This document shows positions 12,377-30,000 of a stretch of DNA of 30,615 nucleotides, piece by piece. The first letter of the stretch is position 1, and each line of letters starts with the position of its first letter. The position numbers were made by a program, and so were the translations under genes. The stretch is from a virus: positions 1-30,615 of IMG/VR virus record IMGVR_UViG_3300017934_000140; one strand, 5' to 3'. The notes below the pieces were generated by a model. It saw only the letters and a list, made by a program, of their open reading frames with translations. It was not told where the DNA came from and made no database searches.

Positions 12377-12392
12377 CCCTCTTCTCCTTAAT

Positions 12393-12434
12393 TCGTTACT
12401 TCTTTGCTTCGTTGCCTCTTTGCCTCGTTGCTTC
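12393..12434 (-). repeat. Octamer array after the adaptor gene
   Basis: On the minus strand: GAAGCAAC, GAGGCAAA, GAGGCAAC, GAAGCAAA, GAAGTAAC. It lies about 10 bases beyond the stop of the adaptor gene and runs close to the ribosome site of the next gene. Confidence 0.7.
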
Positions 12435-13843: not shown

Positions 13844-13882
13844 TGTTGCTTCCTTACTTCGTTGCCTCGTTGCTTCTCGTTA
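13844..13882 (-). repeat. Octamer array
   Basis: On the minus strand: GAGAAGCAAC, GAGGCAAC, GAAGTAAG, GAAGCAAC, right at the end of the gene at 13880. Confidence 0.65.
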
Positions 13883-14765: not shown

Positions 14766-16022
14766 TCAGTACCCGCTCGGCCGTGCCAGAGTATCGATGT
14801 ACGCACCGCTTCTCGGCGAGTCGTCCCACACCTGGAACGCCGTGTCGAAGTAGAAAATGAACGCCGCGGCCAATCCGCCGCTCGCTCCGTAAATCGGGAA
14901 CACCGTGTTGCCGTTGACCTCGTAAAAATCGATGTCCTTCAGCACCGCGCGTCCCCAATGCGACAGGTCCAGAAAATCCACTCGTGTCTGATCTGCGTTC
15001 ACGCTGGACTTGATCGGAATCCCGCTCATCGTCTTTCGCCCGGTGAACAGCAAATCCAAATCATTGCCGTTCCCGCCGCCGCCCTCTTTGATGATCTGGC
15101 TCACCGTGATCCCCAGGTTTTCCCACGCGTGTTCCTGTTCCACAGCCATGTATGCGATCAGTTTGCTCAGGTGGTTGATCCCCAGCGCCTTCCTCACCTT
15201 GTTGATCGCCAGCCGCACGTTCGCCGGCGTCAGCGCCGCATTCCCCGCGTTCACGCGCGGCGTCGCCAGTTGCACCGGATACGTCGCCCGGTTCAGGTTC
15301 AGCCACGTTCCCGTGGTCGCGTTGTTCTGGTGGTACTTGATCCCGTACAGCGACACCGGCTGCGACCCGCTCAAACCGTCGTGTACGATGACGTCTCCGT
15401 TCGTCAACCCGCTCGGATTGGCATCCACCGTAATCGTCTGCGTCGGGCTGATTGGATCCGCTGCTGTCACGTTGCACGTGCCGCGATTGGTCGTCAGCGT
15501 CGAGTCGTACACCTGCAGCGTCTGTCCCACGTACACCAGCGCCGCCCCTGGCGGTGTCGACATCGTCCACGTCGTGCTGGCGAACGAGCCGATCGTCCCT
15601 AGAACCCCATTCCCGGCCGTCTGCATCAACTTGTCCAGAAACGACCGGAACTGCCTCATCCCGTTGACTACTTCCCTCTTCGCCGCGTTCTCGACCGCCC
15701 TTTCCTTCCCGTTCGTCGCGTATTCCACCAGTTTCGTGATTTCAATCGCGAACCGGAAGAAGATCGGCGAAACCTGCGCCACGTCGTACTGAGATCCCGC
15801 GCCGCGGCCCAAGTCTCCGCCGTCCGCGTTGTACGATCCGGCCTTCCCTCCCGGGTTCACCTGCAGGGGCAGCCTCATGTTGCGGCTGGAAATCCGCTCG
15901 ATGTCGCCCCTTTGCTGCATCATCGTCAATAGAATGTCGTCGCGCTCGTAGAGCAGGGGCACCTTGTCGCGCACCTTCTCGAGCTGCAACGCGATGACAT
16001 TCGCGTTCGCTTGTGCTGGCAT
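14766..16022 (-). CDS. Major capsid protein
   Basis: A 418-residue protein with AAGGAGAG before its ATG, the best ribosome site in the block, as expected for the most abundant product. N-terminal helix IALQLEKVRDKVPLLYERDD; core segments ISPIFFRFAIEI-like (about 82-96) and a long helix (ERAVENAAKREVVNGMRQFR). A middle insertion (about 150-235) has strands and Thr/Gly repeats. The C-terminal half (LAINKVRKALGINHLSK...YMAVEQEHAWE) fits the axial domain of HK97-fold capsids. Placement straight after the scaffold-like and portal genes supports the call, and the length suits P22-type coats (about 430). Confidence 0.85.
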   Translation of the reverse strand: MPAQANANVIALQLEKVRDKVPLLYERDDILLTMMQQRGDIERISSRNMRLPLQVNPGGKAGSYNADGGDLGRGAGSQYDVAQVSPIFFRFAIEITKLVEYATNGKERAVENAAKREVVNGMRQFRSFLDKLMQTAGNGVLGTIGSFASTTWTMSTPPGAALVYVGQTLQVYDSTLTTNRGTCNVTAADPISPTQTITVDANPSGLTNGDVIVHDGLSGSQPVSLYGIKYHQNNATTGTWLNLNRATYPVQLATPRVNAGNAALTPANVRLAINKVRKALGINHLSKLIAYMAVEQEHAWENLGITVSQIIKEGGGGNGNDLDLLFTGRKTMSGIPIKSSVNADQTRVDFLDLSHWGRAVLKDIDFYEVNGNTVFPIYGASGGLAAAFIFYFDTAFQVWDDSPRSGAYIDTLARPSGY

Positions 16023-16555: not shown

Positions 16556-17917
16556 TTAAAGACCCAAAATCTCTTCGTCGCTGATCCTTCCGTAATCCAC
16601 CCGCCGCCCCCCGCCCGCTCCTGCTTCTCTTCGCGTAGCGCTCGTTTTTTCATTCCGTCCGGACACCGCGCGGTCATTTTCTTTCCGTGCTCCCGGCGCC
16701 GCTTCTCGCCGCCCCGTTTCTCCCAGCTCCTCGCGCTCCGCCTCTGCCGGATTTCGTCCTTTTCCCCGCGCGCTCAATGTCGCTTGTGTCCACGAACCCA
16801 CCACGCGCCGCACCGCTCCTGGCACCAACTGCTGCGCCCGCGCATCGATCAATCGCACCACCTGAGCCCTCGCCCCTTCATCGAATCGCCTTCCCGCCAA
16901 AATCTTCGCCACCTGCTCGCCCAACTGCCCGTCGCTCTTGAGTGCCGCCTCAACCTCTTCCCGCACCGCCCCCGCCAATCGTTCTTGTAGCGGCGGGTTT
17001 ACCCCGCCGCCGGGGTCAACTCGCGACGAGTTCACCCTCAAATTCGGCAGCGCTTGTTCCATCATCCGCGCAATCGCCCCGCCCACACTCTTCTCCAACT
17101 CCGTATTCGCCGCCTTCTCAAACTCCCGGTATGCCCCGACCACTTCTTCTGTAGCGCTGGCTGTCATGCCAGCGTTTTCGGTGTCCGCACCCGCATTTCT
17201 GTCATCCCGACCAGAGGACCGCGCCTCCTGCGGCCCGGAGTGGAGGGATCGTGGCATGTTCACCGCATCTTGGCTCGCGCTCGCTTCTGCTCCGTTCCCC
17301 AACCTGCCGCCTGCTCCCAGCAGCCGCACTCCCGCCTCCACCATCTCCCGAAACGCTGCCGGGTCCTGCTGCATCATCTGCCGCGCAAGCTGCGCCCGCG
17401 CCGCACTATCCCCGCGATAAAACGCCGCATCAATCGCATCCAACTCCCGCGCACGTTCCGCCGCCGCTCTGGCCTCACTCGCGCCTCCCGGATAAATCTC
17501 TTTCAGCGCACGCGCATCCTCGGCCGTTGCAAACACCTCGCGATACGCCGCAACTTCCTTCTCCGTCCTCTGCTTGTCATCCCACAGCTCCTTCGCCTCA
17601 TCCCCGTGCCAAGGATCCTTCATCCGCTCCGCCAGCCACTGCGGCACTTCCGTCGCGTTCCCTTCGCTGCTACTCGCCCCGTCTGGCCGGTTGTTCACCC
17701 CGTCCCTGTAGCTCACCCCTTCAGGGGTGAGGCTTTTTTCGTCCCCGCCACCCAACAACTTTTCATCTGCGGTCTTTACGTTTGTCATCCTGAGGGATGC
17801 GTCCTTTGCGTCCCGAAGGACCTCAACCTCAGCTCCGCCACCCAACGGTCCGCCGTCCGGTTCCACCCCCACAATCTGCTCATCCGTCAACGCAAACACT
17901 TCGGTTCCCGCATTCAT
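16556..17917 (-). CDS. Scaffold-like capsid assembly protein carrying translated palindromes
   Basis: A 453-residue protein, ATG with AGGAG about eight bases upstream. The position between portal and major capsid is that of the P22-type scaffold, and the charged, helix-rich composition (AYREVFATAEDARALKE, ARAAAERARELDAIDAAF) agrees; the C-terminal 85 residues are basic, like a coat-binding end. At least five repeats are translated in frame: family A at residues about 33-48, D at 61-73 and 245-257, B at 221-240, and D at 296-314. Without them the protein would be about 375 residues. Despite these insertions the frame is open throughout. The scaffold role rests on position and composition; sequence identity is not recognised. 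Confidence 0.65.
   Translation of the reverse strand: MNAGTEVFALTDEQIVGVEPDGGPLGGGAEVEVLRDAKDASLRMTNVKTADEKLLGGGDEKSLTPEGVSYRDGVNNRPDGASSSEGNATEVPQWLAERMKDPWHGDEAKELWDDKQRTEKEVAAYREVFATAEDARALKEIYPGGASEARAAAERARELDAIDAAFYRGDSAARAQLARQMMQQDPAAFREMVEAGVRLLGAGGRLGNGAEASASQDAVNMPRSLHSGPQEARSSGRDDRNAGADTENAGMTASATEEVVGAYREFEKAANTELEKSVGGAIARMMEQALPNLRVNSSRVDPGGGVNPPLQERLAGAVREEVEAALKSDGQLGEQVAKILAGRRFDEGARAQVVRLIDARAQQLVPGAVRRVVGSWTQATLSARGKGRNPAEAEREELGETGRREAAPGARKENDRAVSGRNEKTSATRREAGAGGGRRVDYGRISDEEILGL
16986..17256. repeat. Family D, D and B palindromes inside the scaffold gene
   Basis: D at 16986-17013 (GGCGGGTTTACCCCGCC), D at 17150-17181 (CGCTGGCTGTCATGCCAGCG) and B at 17200-17256 (CATCCCGACCAGAGGACCGCG...GGAGTGGAGGGATCGTGGC). 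All keep the reading frame. Confidence 0.85.
17707..17827. repeat. Family D and A palindromes inside the scaffold gene
   Basis: D at 17707-17737 (CTCACCCCTTCAGGGGTGAG) encodes the peptide LTPEGVSYRDG; A at 17783-17827 encodes RDAKDASLRMT. Confidence 0.85.
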
Positions 17918-17975: not shown

Positions 17976-20009
17976 CTATTTACAAGCGCTTGCCGCATTC
18001 CCCCCCGCCTGCACCACCTTCAAATGCGCCTCCGCGTGCGCTCGCACATTCGCAAACCCTGCCGGATTCGTCAGCTTCGCCGCCTGCCCCGCCTCCGAGT
18101 TCGCCCACCTCTTGCACTCCTCAAACTCCACCGCGTGATCATCCAACAACACATCCACCGCCACCGACGGCAGCACCACGCTTCCAGCCGCTGACTCCTG
18201 GTCGCCGGCCCGCCCTGAGCTTGCCGAATGGGCCGCTGATCGCTGGTCGCCTGTTCCAATGGTCGACAAAATAATGGGAGCCCCACCCAACATCGCCTGT
18301 ATCTCCCTCAACTGCTTGTTCCGCGCATCCTCCCCCGGCACCACCAGCTCCGTCAGCCCCAGCACGTTCTTGATGTACCCAAGGTTCGCCGGCTCCGCCA
18401 GTGCTTCCTGGATCAACGGGTCCTTCAGCGCAAACAACTGCTGCAGCACGCCCCTCTGCTGCGATTTCAGCCTCGGAAACGTCTCATCCGCCTCCGGGTG
18501 CACGCAAATATTCCCTTTCAAGTCCGCCACTCGAATCATCCGCGCATCCATCGTTCCGTCCGGCCCCAGCAGCGGGACATCCACGTCACCCGGCCGGTTC
18601 TTCCGGAAGCAGTCCACTCCTAGCAGCATCACATCCGCATAAAACTGTTTCACTCGCCGCCACACCAGCCCCAGCCGCCCCATCGCCTGATCCCGAGCCA
18701 TCGCGTAGCCGCTCGCCGTCTTCACGTCCTCCATGTTTCCGCCAAACAGCGCTGGAAACATCCCGGTCAAGAATTGCGCTACCGGTCCAATCAGGTCCTG
18801 CTGGTGCCGGATCATGTCCGGAGGCACTTGCGCCGGTGCCGGCTGGAAAAATCCTGCCGCTAACGGCTGTCCCGGCCGAGCGCGAGCCGGAAAATGTGCC
18901 GCCGGCTCTGCCGTCTGGTTCCCGATCGCATCGAAATCCAAAACTTGCGGGTCGGCGTAAATCGGCGGAATCCCGTACTCATACGTCTCCGCCTGGATAT
19001 TCGATAGCGCGTTGTACCGCTCCTGCACCTGCACCAGCGAATCCCCCACGCTCGGCCGGTTTTGCCCGTCTCCCGGCAACGCGTGCAGCACCCGCCAGTG
19101 ATCGTCCATGCTTTCATTTCGCGCTTCGCAATACACGTCCCCGGCAAACCCCACGTAGCATCCCTCCGGGAACAGCGTCAACAAATCCTTTCGCACCGCC
19201 TCGTCTTCCACTCCATAAAACGCCCACGGCCGCAGCCAAGTCCGGTCAAATGTAATCAAATTCATCAGCGCGTCGCCGGGATGGATCGAAGGCAATCCCT
19301 GCTCCACGCTCAACCGCGACACGCGCGCATACACGTCCTCTGCGCCTTGCGATGGCGCGCTCTCGATCTTGTCCGCCACCAGCGGATACGCCGCCTTCAA
19401 CTTCGCTCGATGCACTTCCGCCTGCCATTGCAGGTACGGAAATTCGTCCATCTCGTTCGCCCACACCGGCGTATTCAACTCCAATCCCCCCGCGATCGAA
19501 ATCACTTCCTGCCCATTCGCCACTCGCCGCACCCCCGCCACCCGCGGCACCGTCACCCGCTCCGCCCTCCTCAGGTCCTTCTCCCCCATCTCCGCCCCGC
19601 ACTCCGGGCACACACCGGGTTGACTCCTGTAGGGCCCGCCTTCTGAGGCGGGCCGTTCCGCGTTCCCCGCGTCTTGGCTCTCCCCTCTCCTTACACCCAG
19701 CCCTGTCATCCTGAGCGGCGCGTCGTTTGCGCCGCGAAGGATCTCATCTTTAACCCCACCTCCGCCGTTCCCTGCACCACCCAACCCTTCACTGTCATCC
19801 GGAACGAATGCGAGGGATCTGCTGTTCTCTTCGCTCGCCACTCGCCACTCGCCACTTCCGCCCGGCTCTTCTTCCCGCACTCCGGACAAACCCACACATC
19901 CTCTCCCAGCGGAATCTCCACCGCCTCCAGCAATTCCTCCTCGTGAAACCCGAATCGCTGCGCATCCTCCACATACCGCACGTACGCGCCCAGCTTCCCG
20001 TCCGTCCAC
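17976..20009 (-). CDS. Portal protein, C-terminal part (shifted frame)
   Basis: Credible portal sequence begins at about 19858 and runs to 17976. It opens with a second CPECG half-ribbon (about 19600), then VYARVSRLSVEQGLPSIHPG, the wing region, ERYNALSNIQAETYEYGIPP, and a C-terminal helical region with AMGRLGLVWRRVKQFYADVM. Size and order fit a large P22-type portal (about 725 residues) once repeats are removed. It overlaps the N-terminal part by 300 bases in a different frame; no start with a convincing ribosome site lies in this frame. The end carries GDQRSAA and GDQESAA, encoded by heptamer arrays at 18184-18260 split by a family E palindrome. Whether the two parts make one functional protein is open. 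Confidence 0.72.
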   Translation of the reverse strand: MDGREAGRVRAVCGGCAAIRVSRGGIAGGGGDSAGRGCVGLSGVREEEPGGSGEWRVASEENSRSLAFVPDDSEGLGGAGNGGGGVKDEILRGANDAPLRMTGLGVRRGESQDAGNAERPASEGGPYRSQPGVCPECGAEMGEKDLRRAERVTVPRVAGVRRVANGQEVISIAGGLELNTPVWANEMDEFPYLQWQAEVHRAKLKAAYPLVADKIESAPSQGAEDVYARVSRLSVEQGLPSIHPGDALMNLITFDRTWLRPWAFYGVEDEAVRKDLLTLFPEGCYVGFAGDVYCEARNESMDDHWRVLHALPGDGQNRPSVGDSLVQVQERYNALSNIQAETYEYGIPPIYADPQVLDFDAIGNQTAEPAAHFPARARPGQPLAAGFFQPAPAQVPPDMIRHQQDLIGPVAQFLTGMFPALFGGNMEDVKTASGYAMARDQAMGRLGLVWRRVKQFYADVMLLGVDCFRKNRPGDVDVPLLGPDGTMDARMIRVADLKGNICVHPEADETFPRLKSQQRGVLQQLFALKDPLIQEALAEPANLGYIKNVLGLTELVVPGEDARNKQLREIQAMLGGAPIILSTIGTGDQRSAAHSASSGRAGDQESAAGSVVLPSVAVDVLLDDHAVEFEECKRWANSEAGQAAKLTNPAGFANVRAHAEAHLKVVQAGGNAASACK
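18184..18260 (-). repeat. Heptamer array split by a family E palindrome, inside the portal gene
   Basis: Heptamers (GGCGACC, AGGAGTC, AGCGGCT and AGGCGACC, AGCGATC, AGCGGCC) flank the inserted palindrome at 18209-18234 (GGCCCGCCCTGAGCTTGCCG...GGGCC). All is translated in frame. Confidence 0.7.
19628..19854. repeat. Repeat cluster in the portal zinc-ribbon linker
   Basis: From left to right: D at 19628-19655 (GGCCCGCCTTCTGAGGCGGGCC), A at 19704-19746, short A at 19793-19820, and three perfect copies of CTCGCCA at 19834-19854. Together they fill the stretch where the portal frame changes. Confidence 0.85.
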
Positions 20010-20662
20010 AAAAAATATCCGATCGACGTCAGCAAGTGCTCCACATGATTGTTCCGCTCGATCAACTCCGCCACATCGCTCGCCGCGCGTGCCGCCGCTA
20101 TGTCCACCAGCGATTGGAACGATTGCGGGAAGAACCGCACGCTCGGCACATCCTGCGAAAGCACCGCCACGAACGACAGCCCAAATCCCTGGTAGAAATT
20201 TGTCACAAACTGGTACCGCGGCATCTCCTCCAGCGCGCGGTCGTCGCTCGACCGATGTTCGTACGGCAAGTGCCAGTTCATGTCATTCGGGTTCCACCAC
20301 ATGTACTGCAATCCCTGCCAGAACAGCCGCGCCTGCCGTATCCTGCGAATCTCGTGCCTCCGCGCCGCCACTCCTTCCATCCGGTACTGCCGCACCAATT
20401 CCCGCAGCGCGTTCACCAGCTCCGGCCGTTCCTCGTCCAACCTCTCCAGATTCGGCCCCAGCTCTTGTAGGGACGGCCTTCTGAGGCCGTCCGCTCTCGC
20501 TGCCTCATTCGCCCGCAACCCGCCATCTCTGTAGCTCACCCCTTCAGGGGTGAGGCGTTTTCCAACCAGGTCCCCGCCGTACTCCGAACTCGCGCTCGTC
20601 CCGGCATTCCCATCCGCCGGCGCCATCACGCCCCGCTCAAACTCATTCATCTCGTTTCCCAT
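19706..20662 (-). CDS. Portal protein, N-terminal part
   Basis: I start it at the ATG at 20662, which has GAGAG upstream; the open frame beyond is a translated family C repeat. Residues about 80-280 show portal-like features: QARLFWQGLQYMWWNPND, a wing segment with FYQGFGLSFVAVLSQDVP, and a long helix (AAARAASDVAELIERNNHVE). It then reaches a CPECG half zinc-ribbon and runs into repeat DNA, ending at a stop created inside a family A element. Two D palindromes are translated near the start (residues about 35-47, peptide LTPEGVSYRDG, and about 57-67). The second CPECG and the rest of the portal lie in the -1 frame. Confidence 0.75.
   Translation of the reverse strand: MGNEMNEFERGVMAPADGNAGTSASSEYGGDLVGKRLTPEGVSYRDGGLRANEAARADGLRRPSLQELGPNLERLDEERPELVNALRELVRQYRMEGVAARRHEIRRIRQARLFWQGLQYMWWNPNDMNWHLPYEHRSSDDRALEEMPRYQFVTNFYQGFGLSFVAVLSQDVPSVRFFPQSFQSLVDIAAARAASDVAELIERNNHVEHLLTSIGYFLWTDGKLGAYVRYVEDAQRFGFHEEELLEAVEIPLGEDVWVCPECGKKSRAEVASGEWRAKRTADPSHSFRMTVKGWVVQGTAEVGLKMRSFAAQTTRRSG
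20466..20559. repeat. Two family D palindromes inside the portal gene
   Basis: 20466-20493 (GGACGGCCTTCTGAGGCCGTCC) and 20530-20559 (CTCACCCCTTCAGGGGTGAG). The second encodes the same LTPEGVSYRDG peptide as a copy in the scaffold gene. Confidence 0.85.
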
Positions 20663-20692
20663 AAACTCTCTCGATTGCACATCAACCAAAGT

Positions 20693-20748
20693 GCTTGAGG
20701 GTGCCCCACCCTTTCTGCGCATTTTGCAGAAAGGGTGGGCTCTTACGA
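20693..20748. repeat. Family C repeat upstream of portal
   Basis: GAGGGTGCCCCACCCTTTCTGC and GCAGAAAGGGTGGGCTCTTACG form a stem of more than 12 bp. Confidence 0.8.
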
Positions 20749-20798
20749 TCTGACGCCTCACACTCTCTTCTCTTAACTCTTGGGCTTTTCTTCCCCGC

Positions 20799-22332: not shown

Positions 22333-22371
22333 ATTGCTTCCTTACCTCTTTCCTTCTTTGCTTCCTCCTTC
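22333..22371 (-). repeat. Octamer array after the terminase gene
   Basis: On the minus strand: GAAGCAAA, GAAGGAAA, GAGGTAAG, GAAGCAAT, within a few bases of the terminase stop. Confidence 0.65.
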
Positions 22372-24073
22372 ACCAATTCCATCTCCGCTTCCCCAACCGG
22401 TGCGGCCCCAACTGCTTCCTCGCCTCCGCCTCCAGCCTCTGCCGATGAATCGCCCGCGAAGTCGGATCCTCCGCGCTGATCTGCCGCTCGATCTGCACCG
22501 CCACCGGTATTCCCGGCACAAATCGCGCTCCACTCGTTAAACCATTAGGGGGCGGAGCCTGCCCCGCCCCGGGCCCGCCTTCCGTAATCTTGGCGAAGGA
22601 GGGTGCCCCAAGACCGGCGTATCGCACGCCGGAAACCAATCCATATCTCGCCGCGTCCGCCGGATCATCCCCCTCTACCTTCCGGACGTCCTCCACGCGC
22701 CGCTCATCTCTCACCAGCAACGGCAGGCCCTCAATCAACTCCCGGCAATTCTCCGTAATCACCCACTCGTCGTTTTCCAGCATCTGGTACATCAACTGCC
22801 ATCCGCCCACACGGTCGTCATCCGCGGGCACCGGCCGCGGTAATCCGTTCTGCGCCAGCACCTCGCCCAACTGTTCTGCAATCGACGCCTCGCTCGTCCG
22901 GTGCGCGAACGCGTCCGGCGACAGAACCACTTCCTCGATTCGCTCGCCCGCACTCCGTTCCGCGATCGCCTGGGCCAGCATTCGCGGCGAAAGCTCGTTC
23001 TTCACAAACTCGCGGTATGTGACAACCCGACAAGGGTCGTCATCCTGAGCGCATCTGTCGCGCGAAGGATCCCTCTGCTCCCCACGAGTCCCGGACCACG
23101 ACTCACGAATCACGCCATCCGGCACCGCACAATGCCAATACACCGCGCTGTTATGATGGAATCCCCAATCGATCGAAATCCACCTCGGCCACCACGCCTG
23201 CATCCCGATCTCGTCCGCCCGGGCCGTGTGTCGTCCAATTTCAAACACATTAAAATACTGCCCCGCGAAGACGCTCCAATCCCCTTCCAGAAACGCTTTC
23301 CGCAACCGTTCCGGCAAAGCCTCCAGCGTCTTCCGGTAATTCATGTCCTCCGCGTAAATCGGGTTGTCCTCAATCCGCGCCTCAATGAAGTCGTAATCGT
23401 TCGCATCGTACTGTTCCGGTCGGTCATACCCCGGCGGCGGCACCTTATCCACCCACAGCGCCTTCACCCACGCGTGCCCGATATTCCCCGGGTTCGTCGC
23501 CCCCGCCATGCACGGTTTCGACCCCGCAATCGGGCAACGGTTCCGCGAAGTTAGAAACTGCCATTGCTTTAACGTGAAATGTGTCAGCTCATCGATCCCG
23601 ATGAACAAAAACTCCGCGCCCTGGTACTGGTAAACGTCATTCTCATTCCGGCAGTACCCGAACCGGATCGTCGAACCGTTCCTTAGCGTCACCAGGTGCT
23701 TTGCTTCGTTGTAGCTGTGGTATTCCGTGTGCGGCACGTGCCGCCGGAACTGCGCAATCAGCGAACTTTCCAATTCAGGGTAAGTCCTTCTCAAAAGCAG
23801 TGAATCGCTGCCTGCATGCTTCCTGGCTTGGATGAACGCTTCCTCAAGCAGCGCCCTTGTCTTCCCTGGCCCCGCCGCCCCGCCGAATAGTCGGTATGTT
23901 TTTCCCGAGTCGTGGAACTGCTTCTGCCGCGGATACGCTGTGTAGGATTTCCTCGGCTCGCCCTGTCTAGCTCTCTCTTGGCGCTCCGCTTTTATACGGT
24001 TCGCTTCTCCCACCGCCCTGAAGGTATGCTCTCGCGGCCGTCTTATTATTTCGCCTTTGCACGGTTTGCCCAC
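22370..24073 (-). CDS. terL: Terminase large subunit
   Basis: A 567-residue ATPase-nuclease that packages DNA into the procapsid. Walker A is GGAAGPGKT (residues 64-72), Walker B is FLFIGIDE (about 155-162), and the coupling motif is ATNPGN (192-197). The RNase-H-like nuclease starts at ISIDWGF (299-305, Asp302), has a second acidic strand EVVLSPDAF, and ends with GDDPADAARYGL. Residues about 327-347 (GTRGEQRDPSRDRCAQDDD) are a translated family A palindrome inside the nuclease domain, and the Gly/Pro-rich stretch near the C-terminus also holds repeat debris. The GTG at 24073 is the only start in frame before an upstream stop; its ribosome site is poor. No adjacent small subunit is certain. 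Confidence 0.93.
   Translation of the reverse strand: MGKPCKGEIIRRPREHTFRAVGEANRIKAERQERARQGEPRKSYTAYPRQKQFHDSGKTYRLFGGAAGPGKTRALLEEAFIQARKHAGSDSLLLRRTYPELESSLIAQFRRHVPHTEYHSYNEAKHLVTLRNGSTIRFGYCRNENDVYQYQGAEFLFIGIDELTHFTLKQWQFLTSRNRCPIAGSKPCMAGATNPGNIGHAWVKALWVDKVPPPGYDRPEQYDANDYDFIEARIEDNPIYAEDMNYRKTLEALPERLRKAFLEGDWSVFAGQYFNVFEIGRHTARADEIGMQAWWPRWISIDWGFHHNSAVYWHCAVPDGVIRESWSGTRGEQRDPSRDRCAQDDDPCRVVTYREFVKNELSPRMLAQAIAERSAGERIEEVVLSPDAFAHRTSEASIAEQLGEVLAQNGLPRPVPADDDRVGGWQLMYQMLENDEWVITENCRELIEGLPLLVRDERRVEDVRKVEGDDPADAARYGLVSGVRYAGLGAPSFAKITEGGPGAGQAPPPNGLTSGARFVPGIPVAVQIERQISAEDPTSRAIHRQRLEAEARKQLGPHRLGKRRWNW
23039..23071. repeat. Family A palindrome inside terminase
   Basis: CGTCATCCTGAGCGCATCTG...GCGCGAAGGATCC. 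It falls in frame between the first nuclease strand and the next helix, where a surface loop would be expected. Confidence 0.85.
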
Positions 24074-24590: not shown

Positions 24591-25262
24591 TCAGTCCCGT
24601 GTGGCCCGTGGCGCGCTGTCAATCACCGGCCCTGTCTCCGCCATCAACGCGCGCGCATTCTTCCCGTACCGCATCTCCAGCAACCGCTCTAACAAACTCT
24701 TCGACGATCTCTCATCCCTTTCCCGCAGCAAAATTTCCGTCAGCCGGATCAGGTCGATGTTCACGTTCACCGCATCCACAAAACCCACTCCGTCTTCCGG
24801 CAATGGCACACCTCCGTCCAGCTGGGCCCGCTCGTCCCACAAACTCTCTATCGGCGGCTTTCCACCTTTTCCCTTAGCCTCCCCCTTCGCCGCCTTACTC
24901 TCGTTTCTTTGCTTCACAGCTGGTTTTCTACGGTTAGCATGCTTCCGATTCTTCGCCTTCTGCTTCTTCGTTGTCGGTTTTTTCTTAGGAGTGCGCTTGG
25001 CCTTCTTCGCCTTCGGCTCAGCCGAGTCAGCGTCCGTCTTGTGGTCCGCGGCGCGTGCGTCGGAGGCGTGCGCACTCTCGCCAGCGGTTAATCCACGTAC
25101 GGCGTCAGACCCCGCCAGCTCTCTCCGCGAGTTGCAACTCGCCCGGCGCATCTGCCGGCGCACTCCCCGGCGCGTCCGGGAACCCGCTACGACGCGCACC
25201 TCTCCGGAGAACGTATCCATCCCCCGGAAAGCTCTCATCGTGATCGTTTGTGGCACCGCCAT
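24591..25262 (-). CDS. Lysine-rich DNA-binding-like protein, possible small terminase
   Basis: A 223-residue protein, with GGAGGAAGGC before the ATG at 25262. Residues about 75-135 are a Lys/Ala tract (KAKKAKRTPKKKPTTKKQKA), like histone H1- or AlgP-type tails that bind DNA without sequence preference. The C-terminal 80 residues (GKGGKPPIESLWDERAQLDG, LIRLTEILLRERDERSSKSL) form a separate helical domain. It lies two genes upstream of terminase, the usual place of the small subunit. That role is plausible but unproven; a chromatin-like condensing role is the alternative. Confidence 0.6.
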   Translation of the reverse strand: MAVPQTITMRAFRGMDTFSGEVRVVAGSRTRRGVRRQMRRASCNSRRELAGSDAVRGLTAGESAHASDARAADHKTDADSAEPKAKKAKRTPKKKPTTKKQKAKNRKHANRRKPAVKQRNESKAAKGEAKGKGGKPPIESLWDERAQLDGGVPLPEDGVGFVDAVNVNIDLIRLTEILLRERDERSSKSLLERLLEMRYGKNARALMAETGPVIDSAPRATRD

Positions 25263-25307
25263 GCCTTCCTCCGCTGACTGCGTCTTGGCTCCGCCCTGAA
25301 CCGCGCG

Positions 25308-25367
25308 TGTCATCCCGACCGGAGAGACTGCGCTTCTTGCTGTCTCGGAGTGGAGGGATCGTGGCAC
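25308..25367. repeat. Family B repeat
   Basis: CATCCCGACCGGAGAGACTGCG...GGAGTGGAGGGATCGTGGC with a partly decayed stem, just upstream of the lysine-rich gene. Confidence 0.75.
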
Positions 25368-27541: not shown

Positions 27542-28378
27542 GTGCCTTCACCGACACCGCTCCCCAAACTTGCCAACATCCGCCTCCACCCCATCAAGTC
27601 TCTCGACCCTGTCTCCGTCACCGAAGCCCGCATCTCTCCCTCCGGTGGACTCGCTCTTGACCGCGCCTGGGCTCTGTATTCCGTAGACGGCCAGTGGGTT
27701 AACGGCAAGCGCACTCCCGCGGTCCATCTCATCCGCGCCAACTATTCGCCCGACCTCCGTTCCGTCACCCTTTCCGTCCCCGCCGATCGCCGCAAAATCC
27801 CGCCGCGCACGTTCGCTTTCCCCGCCGAACACGAAGAAGCCTCCGAGTGGTTCAGCGTGTTCTTCGAGCAACAGATAATCGTTCGCTATTCTCCCGGGGG
27901 CTTCCCCGACGACACCATTGCCAACGGCCCCACCATCGTTTCCGCAGCCTCGCTCCAGGCCGTCGCCGAATGGTTTACGGGTCTCACCGTCGACGACGTT
28001 CGCCTTCGCTTTCGCACCACTCTCGAAATCAACGTCGACCCGGAAAGGGTCGCGCTTGGAGAGAAGTTGCCGCCCTTCTGGGAAGACCAGCTCTTCGGCG
28101 AAAACGAACGCAGCGTCGTTCGCTTTACCATCGGCGAAGTCGCCTTCGAGGGCAGCAATCCCTGCGCCCGCTGCCCCGTTCCTCCCCGCGATCCTTTCAC
28201 CGGTCTGAATCTCGACGGCTTCCAAAAGCATTTCACTCGCCGGCGCGAAACCACTCTCCCCGCATGGTCCCCCCGCCCTCGCTTCGACCACTTCTACCGC
28301 TTCGCCACCAACACCCGCGTCCCCTCCTCCCAAGCCGGCCGCCTCCTCCGCCTCGCCGACCCCCTCACCCTTTCCTAA
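27542..28378 (+). CDS. MOSC-domain protein
   Basis: A 278-residue protein, GTG start. Residues about 8-110 form the MOSC N-terminal beta-barrel (ANIRLHPIKSLDPVSVTEA, GLALDRAWALYSVDGQWVN). The MOSC domain follows, with NPCARCPVPPRDPFTG (about 212-227) containing the cysteine expected to bind or transfer sulfur in molybdenum cofactor-related proteins. This family includes molybdenum cofactor sulfurase C-terminal domains and the mARC and YiiM/YcbX types; the length and two-domain form suit YcbX-like proteins. The enzyme role is inferred from the family. It is a host gene transcribed away from the phage block, likely from a leaderless mRNA. Confidence 0.88.
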   Translation: MPSPTPLPKLANIRLHPIKSLDPVSVTEARISPSGGLALDRAWALYSVDGQWVNGKRTPAVHLIRANYSPDLRSVTLSVPADRRKIPPRTFAFPAEHEEASEWFSVFFEQQIIVRYSPGGFPDDTIANGPTIVSAASLQAVAEWFTGLTVDDVRLRFRTTLEINVDPERVALGEKLPPFWEDQLFGENERSVVRFTIGEVAFEGSNPCARCPVPPRDPFTGLNLDGFQKHFTRRRETTLPAWSPRPRFDHFYRFATNTRVPSSQAGRLLRLADPLTLS

Positions 28379-28381
28379 CCC

Positions 28382-28437
28382 TGTCATCCCGACCGGAGGC
28401 GCGCGCCGCTTCCGCGCCGCAGTGGAGGGATCGTGGC
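28382..28437. repeat. Family B repeat after the MOSC gene
   Basis: TGTCATCCCGACCGGAGGCGCGCG...CGCGCCGCAGTGGAGGGATCGTGGC, beginning a few bases beyond the stop codon. Confidence 0.8.
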
Positions 28438-28504
28438 TACACTCTATGTAAGCCTTACTCGATGGAACCGCCGCCATCTTGGCTTTGCTTGGTTTCTCCG
28501 GTTG

Positions 28505-28879: not shown

Positions 28880-29278
28880 TCACTCCTCCCCATTAAAATA
28901 CTTTCTCGGCGGAAACAATCCTCGCCTCAACAACTCCTCCCCGCATCTCTTCCGAATCTCCTCCGACCAGTTCACCCAGCTCCGCTCGCTCAATCCCAAA
29001 AAATGCCGCGCCATCTCGTACGGCGCCAACCCCAAATAGTACAAACGGAACATCACCATCCGCGATGCCCGTTCCGGCCCTTGCAATCCCGCCTGGCCCG
29101 CCAACGCAAAATCCGCCACCCAATCTCTCAATTTCGGCCGCAGCTCCGGACGCCACATGTACTTCGCGTCCTGCTGCCAATCCAGCGCCCCCACGCCGCG
29201 CTTCGTCTCCAATATCTCCCGCGCCCCGCGGTACACTTCCCAGCACACATCAAACGCCATTTCCGCCTTCACGCTCAT
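28880..29278 (-). CDS. Helix-turn-helix-type phage regulator, putative
   Basis: A 132-residue protein; the ATG at 29278 has GGAGGGG upstream, and the longer frame is a translated family B repeat. It is helical throughout. Residues about 75-125 (LYYLGLAPYEMARHFLGLSE, then RSWVNWSEEIRKRCG) look like a sigma-region-4-like or small-terminase-like helix-turn-helix. It ends RGLFPPRKYFNGEE. It pairs with the next wing-helix gene on the same strand. DNA binding is inferred; no named family is recognised. Confidence 0.62.
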   Translation of the reverse strand: MSVKAEMAFDVCWEVYRGAREILETKRGVGALDWQQDAKYMWRPELRPKLRDWVADFALAGQAGLQGPERASRMVMFRLYYLGLAPYEMARHFLGLSERSWVNWSEEIRKRCGEELLRRGLFPPRKYFNGEE

Positions 29279-29312
29279 CGTCCCCTCCGCCACTTCTCCG
29301 CCCACCAAAAAA

Positions 29313-29372
29313 CTGTCATCCCGACCGGAGAGCCGCGTCTTTTGCGGCTCGCAGCGGAGGGATCGTGGCTTG
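29313..29372. repeat. Family B repeat
   Basis: TGTCATCCCGACCGGAGAGCCGCG...GCGGCTCGCAGCGGAGGGATCGTGGC, between the two helix-turn-helix genes. Confidence 0.8.
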
Positions 29373-29419
29373 ACCACTGCGTCTCGAACTCATTCTTTTC
29401 TCATTCGCTAGCCACTTCC

Positions 29420-29817: not shown

Positions 29818-29851
29818 TTCATCGCTTCGTTACTTCTTTACTTCGTTACTT
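29818..29851 (-). repeat. Octamer array
   Basis: On the minus strand: GAAGTAAC, GAAGTAAA, GAAGTAAC, GAAGCGAT. It provides the stop codon of the acidic frame ending at 29830. Confidence 0.7.
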
Positions 29852-30000
29852 CCTTCCTCTGTTCCTTCCTTCACATCCTTCAAATCCTCTGCTTCCTCTA
29901 CCTCCTCCACTTCCTCCTCTTCCCACGCGCTTCGATCCGGATCCTCGTAATCCCCCGCGCAGCCGCTGCACAGCCCCGCCACGTTTTCTTTCTTTTCCAC
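29830..30000 (-). CDS. Small acidic protein with CxxC, doubtful
   Basis: A 56-residue frame from a GTG at 30000. It has a CSGC motif near the start, then an acidic stretch (EEEEVEEVEEAEDLKDVKEG) and an end made from an octamer array. The codon use is not random, but the start has no good ribosome site, and the longer frame upstream is the antisense of a plus-strand gene. It may be a real small phage protein. Confidence 0.33.
   Translation of the reverse strand: MEKKENVAGLCSGCAGDYEDPDRSAWEEEEVEEVEEAEDLKDVKEGTEEGSNEVKK

Follow-up and report, generated by a model that had tools for sequence, protein, structure and literature searches.

Our analysis suggests that a family of phages infecting soil Acidobacteria has a portal protein with a tolerated loop, which repeats of the host have refilled in frame, and that a separate small shift at a 7-nt tandem array has broken the reading frame in the one record studied here. 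We give this reading a probability of roughly 0.85. The window, by which we mean the whole stretch of DNA analyzed, is a metagenome-assembled virus record from IMG/VR with a length of 30,615 nt. Its broken frame is ordinary, and the main interest lies in the family-wide loop. The portal fold, the family-wide in-frame loop, the occurrence of the same repeats in host genomes, and the location of the shift are computed results. Read together, they would describe a podovirus-type portal with a zinc ribbon, in which a disordered loop forms the ribbon tip between two CPxCG knuckles. Small dispersed repeats of the Acidobacteria hosts, GTAG-type REPs among them, would have entered the portal loops repeatedly, with selection retaining only those insertions and deletions that preserve the frame, and the repeats would thereby become translated residues of the loop. 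In the window, a further small change beside the 7-nt array would then have moved the frame inside the loop, and the portal as assembled would consist of two incomplete frames, as may be expected of a recently disabled prophage or of a single assembly error.

All long credible frames of the window are found on the minus strand, and two of them, which together make up the portal gene, sit between the terminase and head protein genes of the same strand:

22370-24073, minus strand: terminase large subunit, upstream of the portal, recognized by profile
19706-20761, minus strand: N-terminal portal reading frame, conserved between about 20660 and the first CPECG, with the remainder past the shift out of frame
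17976-20009, minus strand: C-terminal portal reading frame, credibly following the family's frame from roughly 19819 toward lower positions
19874-19888, minus strand: first CPECG knuckle of the zinc ribbon
19611-19873, minus strand: hypervariable ribbon loop of 263 nt (2 modulo 3), with dispersed host-type repeats inside
19596-19610, minus strand: second CPECG knuckle of the zinc ribbon
14766-16022, minus strand: major head protein, downstream of the portal, recognized by profile

A preliminary description of this DNA had reported two portal frames offset by -1 between two CPECG motifs, with four repeats and about 265 bases between the motifs. This is accurate, as we count four elements in 263 nt, and the two frames overlap by 304 nt (19706-20009). 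The same description had called the gene a portal, and the predicted structure of a relative (locus L065, mean pLDDT 75) supports this: its top structural matches are all portals (Foldseek E 4e-13), with a VIA Z score of 24.6, the highest, against the Pan3 portal and of about 20-22 against those of GP4, P22, PaP3, and SU10. By the fold of this relative, the product of the window gene is a predicted phage portal protein. The resemblance to podovirus-type portals extends over 335-430 residues (Z 20-25) and to the gene order terminase - portal - head protein. The family differs from them as follows: sequence identity is only about 10%, there is a zinc ribbon whose tip is hypervariable, and two more loops are hypervariable too. 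Pfam and PHROG profile searches of both window halves matched no family, and a PHROG portal family was matched by one of 21 relatives, at 5e-5. A PDB sequence search with the family profile returned only zinc-finger chains, at the ribbon, and among INPHARED phages no relative was found for the C-terminal half.

Together, the two CPxCG motifs supply the knuckles of one ribbon and not of two, and paired knuckles are found in nearly all close relatives. The ribbon would be expected to bind zinc. In the L065 model, the knuckles are flanked by short strands (241-243 and 253-254), and the ribbon tip between them is a low-confidence loop bounded by these two strands. The spacing between the knuckles is 9-15 residues in distant relatives (L061 and L063-L065) and 20-114 aa in closer relatives of the window, so that the loop ranges from 27 to 342 nt across relatives. 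The earlier suggestion of an ancestral ribbon pried apart by repeats thus stands insofar as a single ribbon has had its loop lengthened by repeat DNA. Outside the variable sites, the protein is close to constant in length: the conserved bodies have medians of 196 and 431 aa (SD 3.5 and 1.7), against 20-114 aa for the ribbon loop and 43-99 aa for a C-terminal loop. The N-terminal tail and the C-terminal loop hold the same sort of repeat filling as the ribbon loop. A model of a relative with a 66-aa ribbon loop (L017) is disordered exactly at residues 1-50, 257-310, and 766-793; pLDDT is below 50 at residues 257-310, with the ribbon strands kept on each side. The simplest reading is that the ribbon loop, the N-terminal tail, and the C-terminal loop are three sites that tolerate foreign sequence, and that tolerance combined with selection on frame would suffice without any function of the repeats.

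The repeats inside the portal gene of the window are as follows:

19624-19658, plus strand: GTAG-type REP palindrome, with its TGTAGGGCCCGCCTTCTGAGGCGGGC core at 19628-19653
19701-19749, plus strand: dispersed repeat TGTCATCCTGAG...GAAGGATCT
19788-19829, plus strand: dispersed repeat TGTCATCCGGA...GAGGGATC
19834-19856, plus strand: 7-nt tandem array, CTCGCCA x3.3, 23 nt, in which a change of one unit alters the frame
20462-20554, plus strand: further dispersed repeats in the N-terminal portal tail, translated, with a GTAG palindrome at 20466-20491 and CTCACCCCT..AGGGGTGAG at 20535-20554

The GTAG repeat has the structure TGTAG GGCCCGCC TTCTGA GGCGGGCC, in which the tag precedes a palindrome whose loop is short. 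The elements at 19701-19749 and 19788-19829 start with TGTCATCC, finish with GGATC, and have no GTAG tag, and are dispersed repeats of a different kind from the GTAG REP. For the comparison with host DNA, we relied on the hosts of related prophages. Searching with a 253-nt piece of the loop gives 41 and 40 significant matches in two Acidobacteria genomes, and these fall on the four elements: the GTAG palindrome, the two TGTCATCC elements, and the 7-nt array. A neighboring coding piece of equal length gives a single match per genome, which is the prophage portal copy. Because related copies are also present elsewhere in the window, and given the 41 and 40 host matches against one and one for the control, the loop repeats are not chance matches. 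Across the family, 40 of 56 loops match host DNA, covering 42% of the total loop length, whereas flanking coding pieces of equal length match in 1/56 and 0/56; the 426 kb of host DNA searched had been selected near repeat sites, and this raises the figure for the loops but not the contrast with the flanks. The other 16 of the 56 loops have no match to the sampled host repeats.

For relatives, two IMG/VR scans yielded more than 100 loci, and a scan of genome contigs yielded 16 loci in Acidobacteria metagenome-assembled genomes (MAGs), Candidatus Acidiferrum typicum included. Some of these MAG loci lie on contigs of 180-624 kb, and for this reason we take the MAG portal loci to be integrated prophages. 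Comparison with relatives having an uninterrupted portal had been proposed in the preliminary description, and many such relatives exist: a single open frame runs across both halves in 65 of 69 distinct loci, with the window counted among the 69. The four that are not open (the window, L008, L013, and L029) have single interruptions at different places. The 51 distinct close loops have 39 different lengths, and yet 49 of them keep the frame. Among these 51, the length from anchor to anchor is not a multiple of three only in the window, L136, and L008, and L008 changes frame upstream of its first knuckle, the loop itself remaining in frame. To allow for shared ancestry, we paired each locus with its nearest neighbor in disjoint sister pairs. 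In 23 pairs the two loops are of unequal length; the difference is a multiple of three in 21 of these, where chance would give about eight (a probability of about 1 in 10^8), and the two exceptional pairs involve the window and L136. Stop codons tell the same story, with only three in frame in 43 loops (two in the window and one in L013), as against 71 in shuffled loops (range 53-96); the two remaining sense frames contain 56 and 135. On these sequence comparisons, the ribbon loop of the relatives is predicted to be translated in frame. The family, but not the window copy as assembled, keeps its repeats in frame within a conserved gene, in the manner of protein-coding palindromes in general. 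That the repeat insertions broke the gene, as the earlier description implied, is not supported, given that repeat-filled loops of up to 342 nt are in frame in relatives. Intron-like removal of the stretch was considered as well and is not needed, the loop of the relatives being open in frame.

Could the two frames of the window instead be two genes, producing polypeptides that assemble together, the second of which starts within the loop? The only hint of a second start is a GTG at 19613, before the second CPECG, with an AGGAG about 10 nt upstream of it. Set against this are the 65 of 69 distinct loci with one open frame and the scattered single interruptions in the other four; none of the 69 has two genes with separate starts, which is the arrangement that would have favored a real split. 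We consider such a split very improbable, and it is unsupported by our data. The two frames could in principle also be joined by programmed -1 ribosomal frameshifting, as their -1 offset and 304-nt overlap would allow. However, from the first CPECG to the stop of the N-terminal frame, there is no in-frame XXXYYYZ heptamer and no run of 4-5 identical bases, and the relatives need no such mechanism. Lacking a slippery site in this part of the overlap, programmed frameshifting is unsupported, and we regard it as extremely improbable.

The preferred reading, in which a small change separate from the repeats moved the frame, can be narrowed down using the phase in which the repeats are read in relatives. 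The family's frame on either side sets the limits:

19820-19873, minus strand: interval that must hold the frame shift

Relatives read the TGTCATCC-type elements mostly in one phase, with 10 of 11 agreeing for GATCCCTC and 20 of 25 for GGATGACA. The GATCCCTC element of the window shows the family phase only in the C-terminal frame; read from the C-terminal side, the TGTCATCCGGA element is in the family's usual phase (10 of 11 relatives). The two repeats beyond the TGTCATCCGGA element, in the C-terminal-frame reading, have frames that are also found in relatives. The phase of the GATCCCTC element places the shift upstream of this element, within 19820-19873. The 7-nt array sits inside this interval, and since 7 is 1 modulo 3, adding or removing a single unit would put the reading out of frame. 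Slippage of the array may be the cause of the shift in the window. The change may be either a real mutation or an assembly error; in the latter case, the portal of the real phage would be intact like those of its relatives and the family-wide loop would be unaffected. We rate an assembly or sequencing error as a serious candidate, at somewhat below even odds. The window is a single metagenome-assembled virus record with a short tandem array at the shift; dN/dS is about 0.1 for both halves of the portal gene (compared with 13 relatives), showing no sign of decay; and the frames of the terminase, the head protein, and two further proteins of 982 and 1298 aa are intact. On the other hand, the 23-nt array is far shorter than a read, so that its collapse is not forced, and broken portals do occur. 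The same shift upstream of the ribbon occurs in two virus records and an Acidobacteria MAG locus (L008, L009, and L140), and the same loop stop recurs in two records (L013 and L054), which shows that broken portals exist in nature in this family. Exact searches of IMG/VR found no second copy of the window's loop. As its sequence stands, the window portal would have lost its function. Separately, we note that the shift shared by L008, L009, and L140 may represent a disabled portal persisting in nature.

The repeats themselves are abundant in the hosts. Copies of the GTAG pattern number 33, 52, and 26 in three Acidobacteria MAGs, with none for the reversed control pattern, and three repeat patterns have 16, 33, and 14 copies in one host genome, again with zero for the reversed controls. 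Host genomes carry 5-15 Y1 transposase genes each. One of these (G002:C3:343067-343384) lies between GTAG copies at 342918(+) and 343519(-), and other copies adjoin the Y1 genes G005:C35:46849 and 63704. With its tag, palindrome, dispersed copies, and Y1 neighbors, the repeat at 19624-19658 fits the published description of GTAG REPs (PMC3733652), and judging by these neighbors such repeats are probably moved by host RAYT transposases (Y1, HUH-type). Recombination or slippage could also have spread repeats into the loop. The dispersal of the copies over host chromosomes suggests, and is our sole ground for proposing, transfer from host to phage. The converse, that the repeats were born in phages and spread from prophages into hosts, or else moved by recombination between repeats and not by transposition, would account for the density of the strict TGTCATCCTGAG pattern (four copies in the 30.6-kb window against 16 in 5.5 Mb of host) and for the nearly uniform orientation of the phage copies, unlike that of the host copies. 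We consider it unlikely, as the repeats occupy tens of dispersed chromosomal sites, including the host dnaE gene, GTAG copies flank host RAYT genes, and distant viral relatives are without any of the repeats. In the case of dnaE, the gene for the DNA polymerase III alpha subunit of Candidatus Acidiferrum typicum (L173:1-2589, minus strand), a GTAG repeat and a TGTCATCC element lie in frame in the PHP domain. This agrees with a report that intragenic REPs are frequent in replication and repair genes (PMC3733652).

Among the closest known parallels are the Rickettsia palindromic elements (RPEs; Ogata et al. 2000, reviewed in PMC2229807) and other protein-coding palindromes. As with RPEs, the portal repeats are small palindromic sequences lying in frame in functional genes, translated, and tolerated in loops. 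The sequences are unrelated, however: RPEs have a CGTC tag (PMC3733652), and the portal-loop repeats have GTAG or TGTCATCC. The target also differs, being a phage virion protein. One loop holds several repeat families, and about 50 lineages have had the same loops refilled. By analogy, the portal-loop repeats seem to work like RPEs without being RPEs. There is a second likeness to the intragenic GTAG REPs and their RAYTs (PMC3733652, PMC6006769): of the four repeats, one bears both the GTAG tag and the palindrome, and it adjoins Y1 transposase genes in the host group; the host dnaE provides an example of REPs in replication genes. The intragenic REPs of both these studies are in bacterial genes, and PMC3733652 does not contain the words "phage" or "prophage". 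Within the open-access papers that we searched, we found no description of such filling of a phage virion protein, recurring at the same loops. Thus, the kind of element is known, and its setting, a phage virion protein with recurrence at the same loops, appears to be new. It would follow that host repeats can enter a core virion protein repeatedly and in frame, as was known before for bacterial genes. The roughly 50 natural loop variants form a ready series for studying the tolerance of a portal and for asking if the translated repeats bring a benefit or are neutral. For annotation, they carry a warning that such portals will appear split or truncated after the slip of one short tandem array.

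The orientation of the repeats differs between phages and hosts. A pattern search of the window for four repeat families gave 25 asymmetric copies (361-29364), and every one of them lies on the plus strand, in antisense to all of the phage genes. Outside the loop, relatives share this skew (11:1, 19:2, 6:1, and 4:0). Host sites between tandem genes show no such skew, with 33 in the same orientation and 17 in the opposite one, and orientation relative to genes as a general host rule was tested on these sites and failed. Transposases of the HUH type in the IS200/IS605 family favor the lagging-strand template (PMC6006769), and by analogy such a preference could explain the one-way orientation if the phage replicates in one direction. 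An extended version, in which an HUH transposase places host REPs in one orientation via the lagging-strand template of a phage whose replication runs one way, and in-frame arrivals are kept as a useful, fast-changing loop that, for example, alters the surface seen by host defenses or capsid partners, is a speculation we hold to be quite doubtful. The one-way orientation in phages and its absence in hosts make the question of REP insertion testable. Whole copies of the dispersed repeats also occur in other predicted phage frames of the window (16556-17917, 24591-25367, 27548-28477, and 28880-29377, minus strand). Finally, an 8-nt tandem motif of the TTCGTTAC/TTCTTTGC type is found between genes at 12392-12434, 13845-13876, 22334-22364, and 29825-29852.
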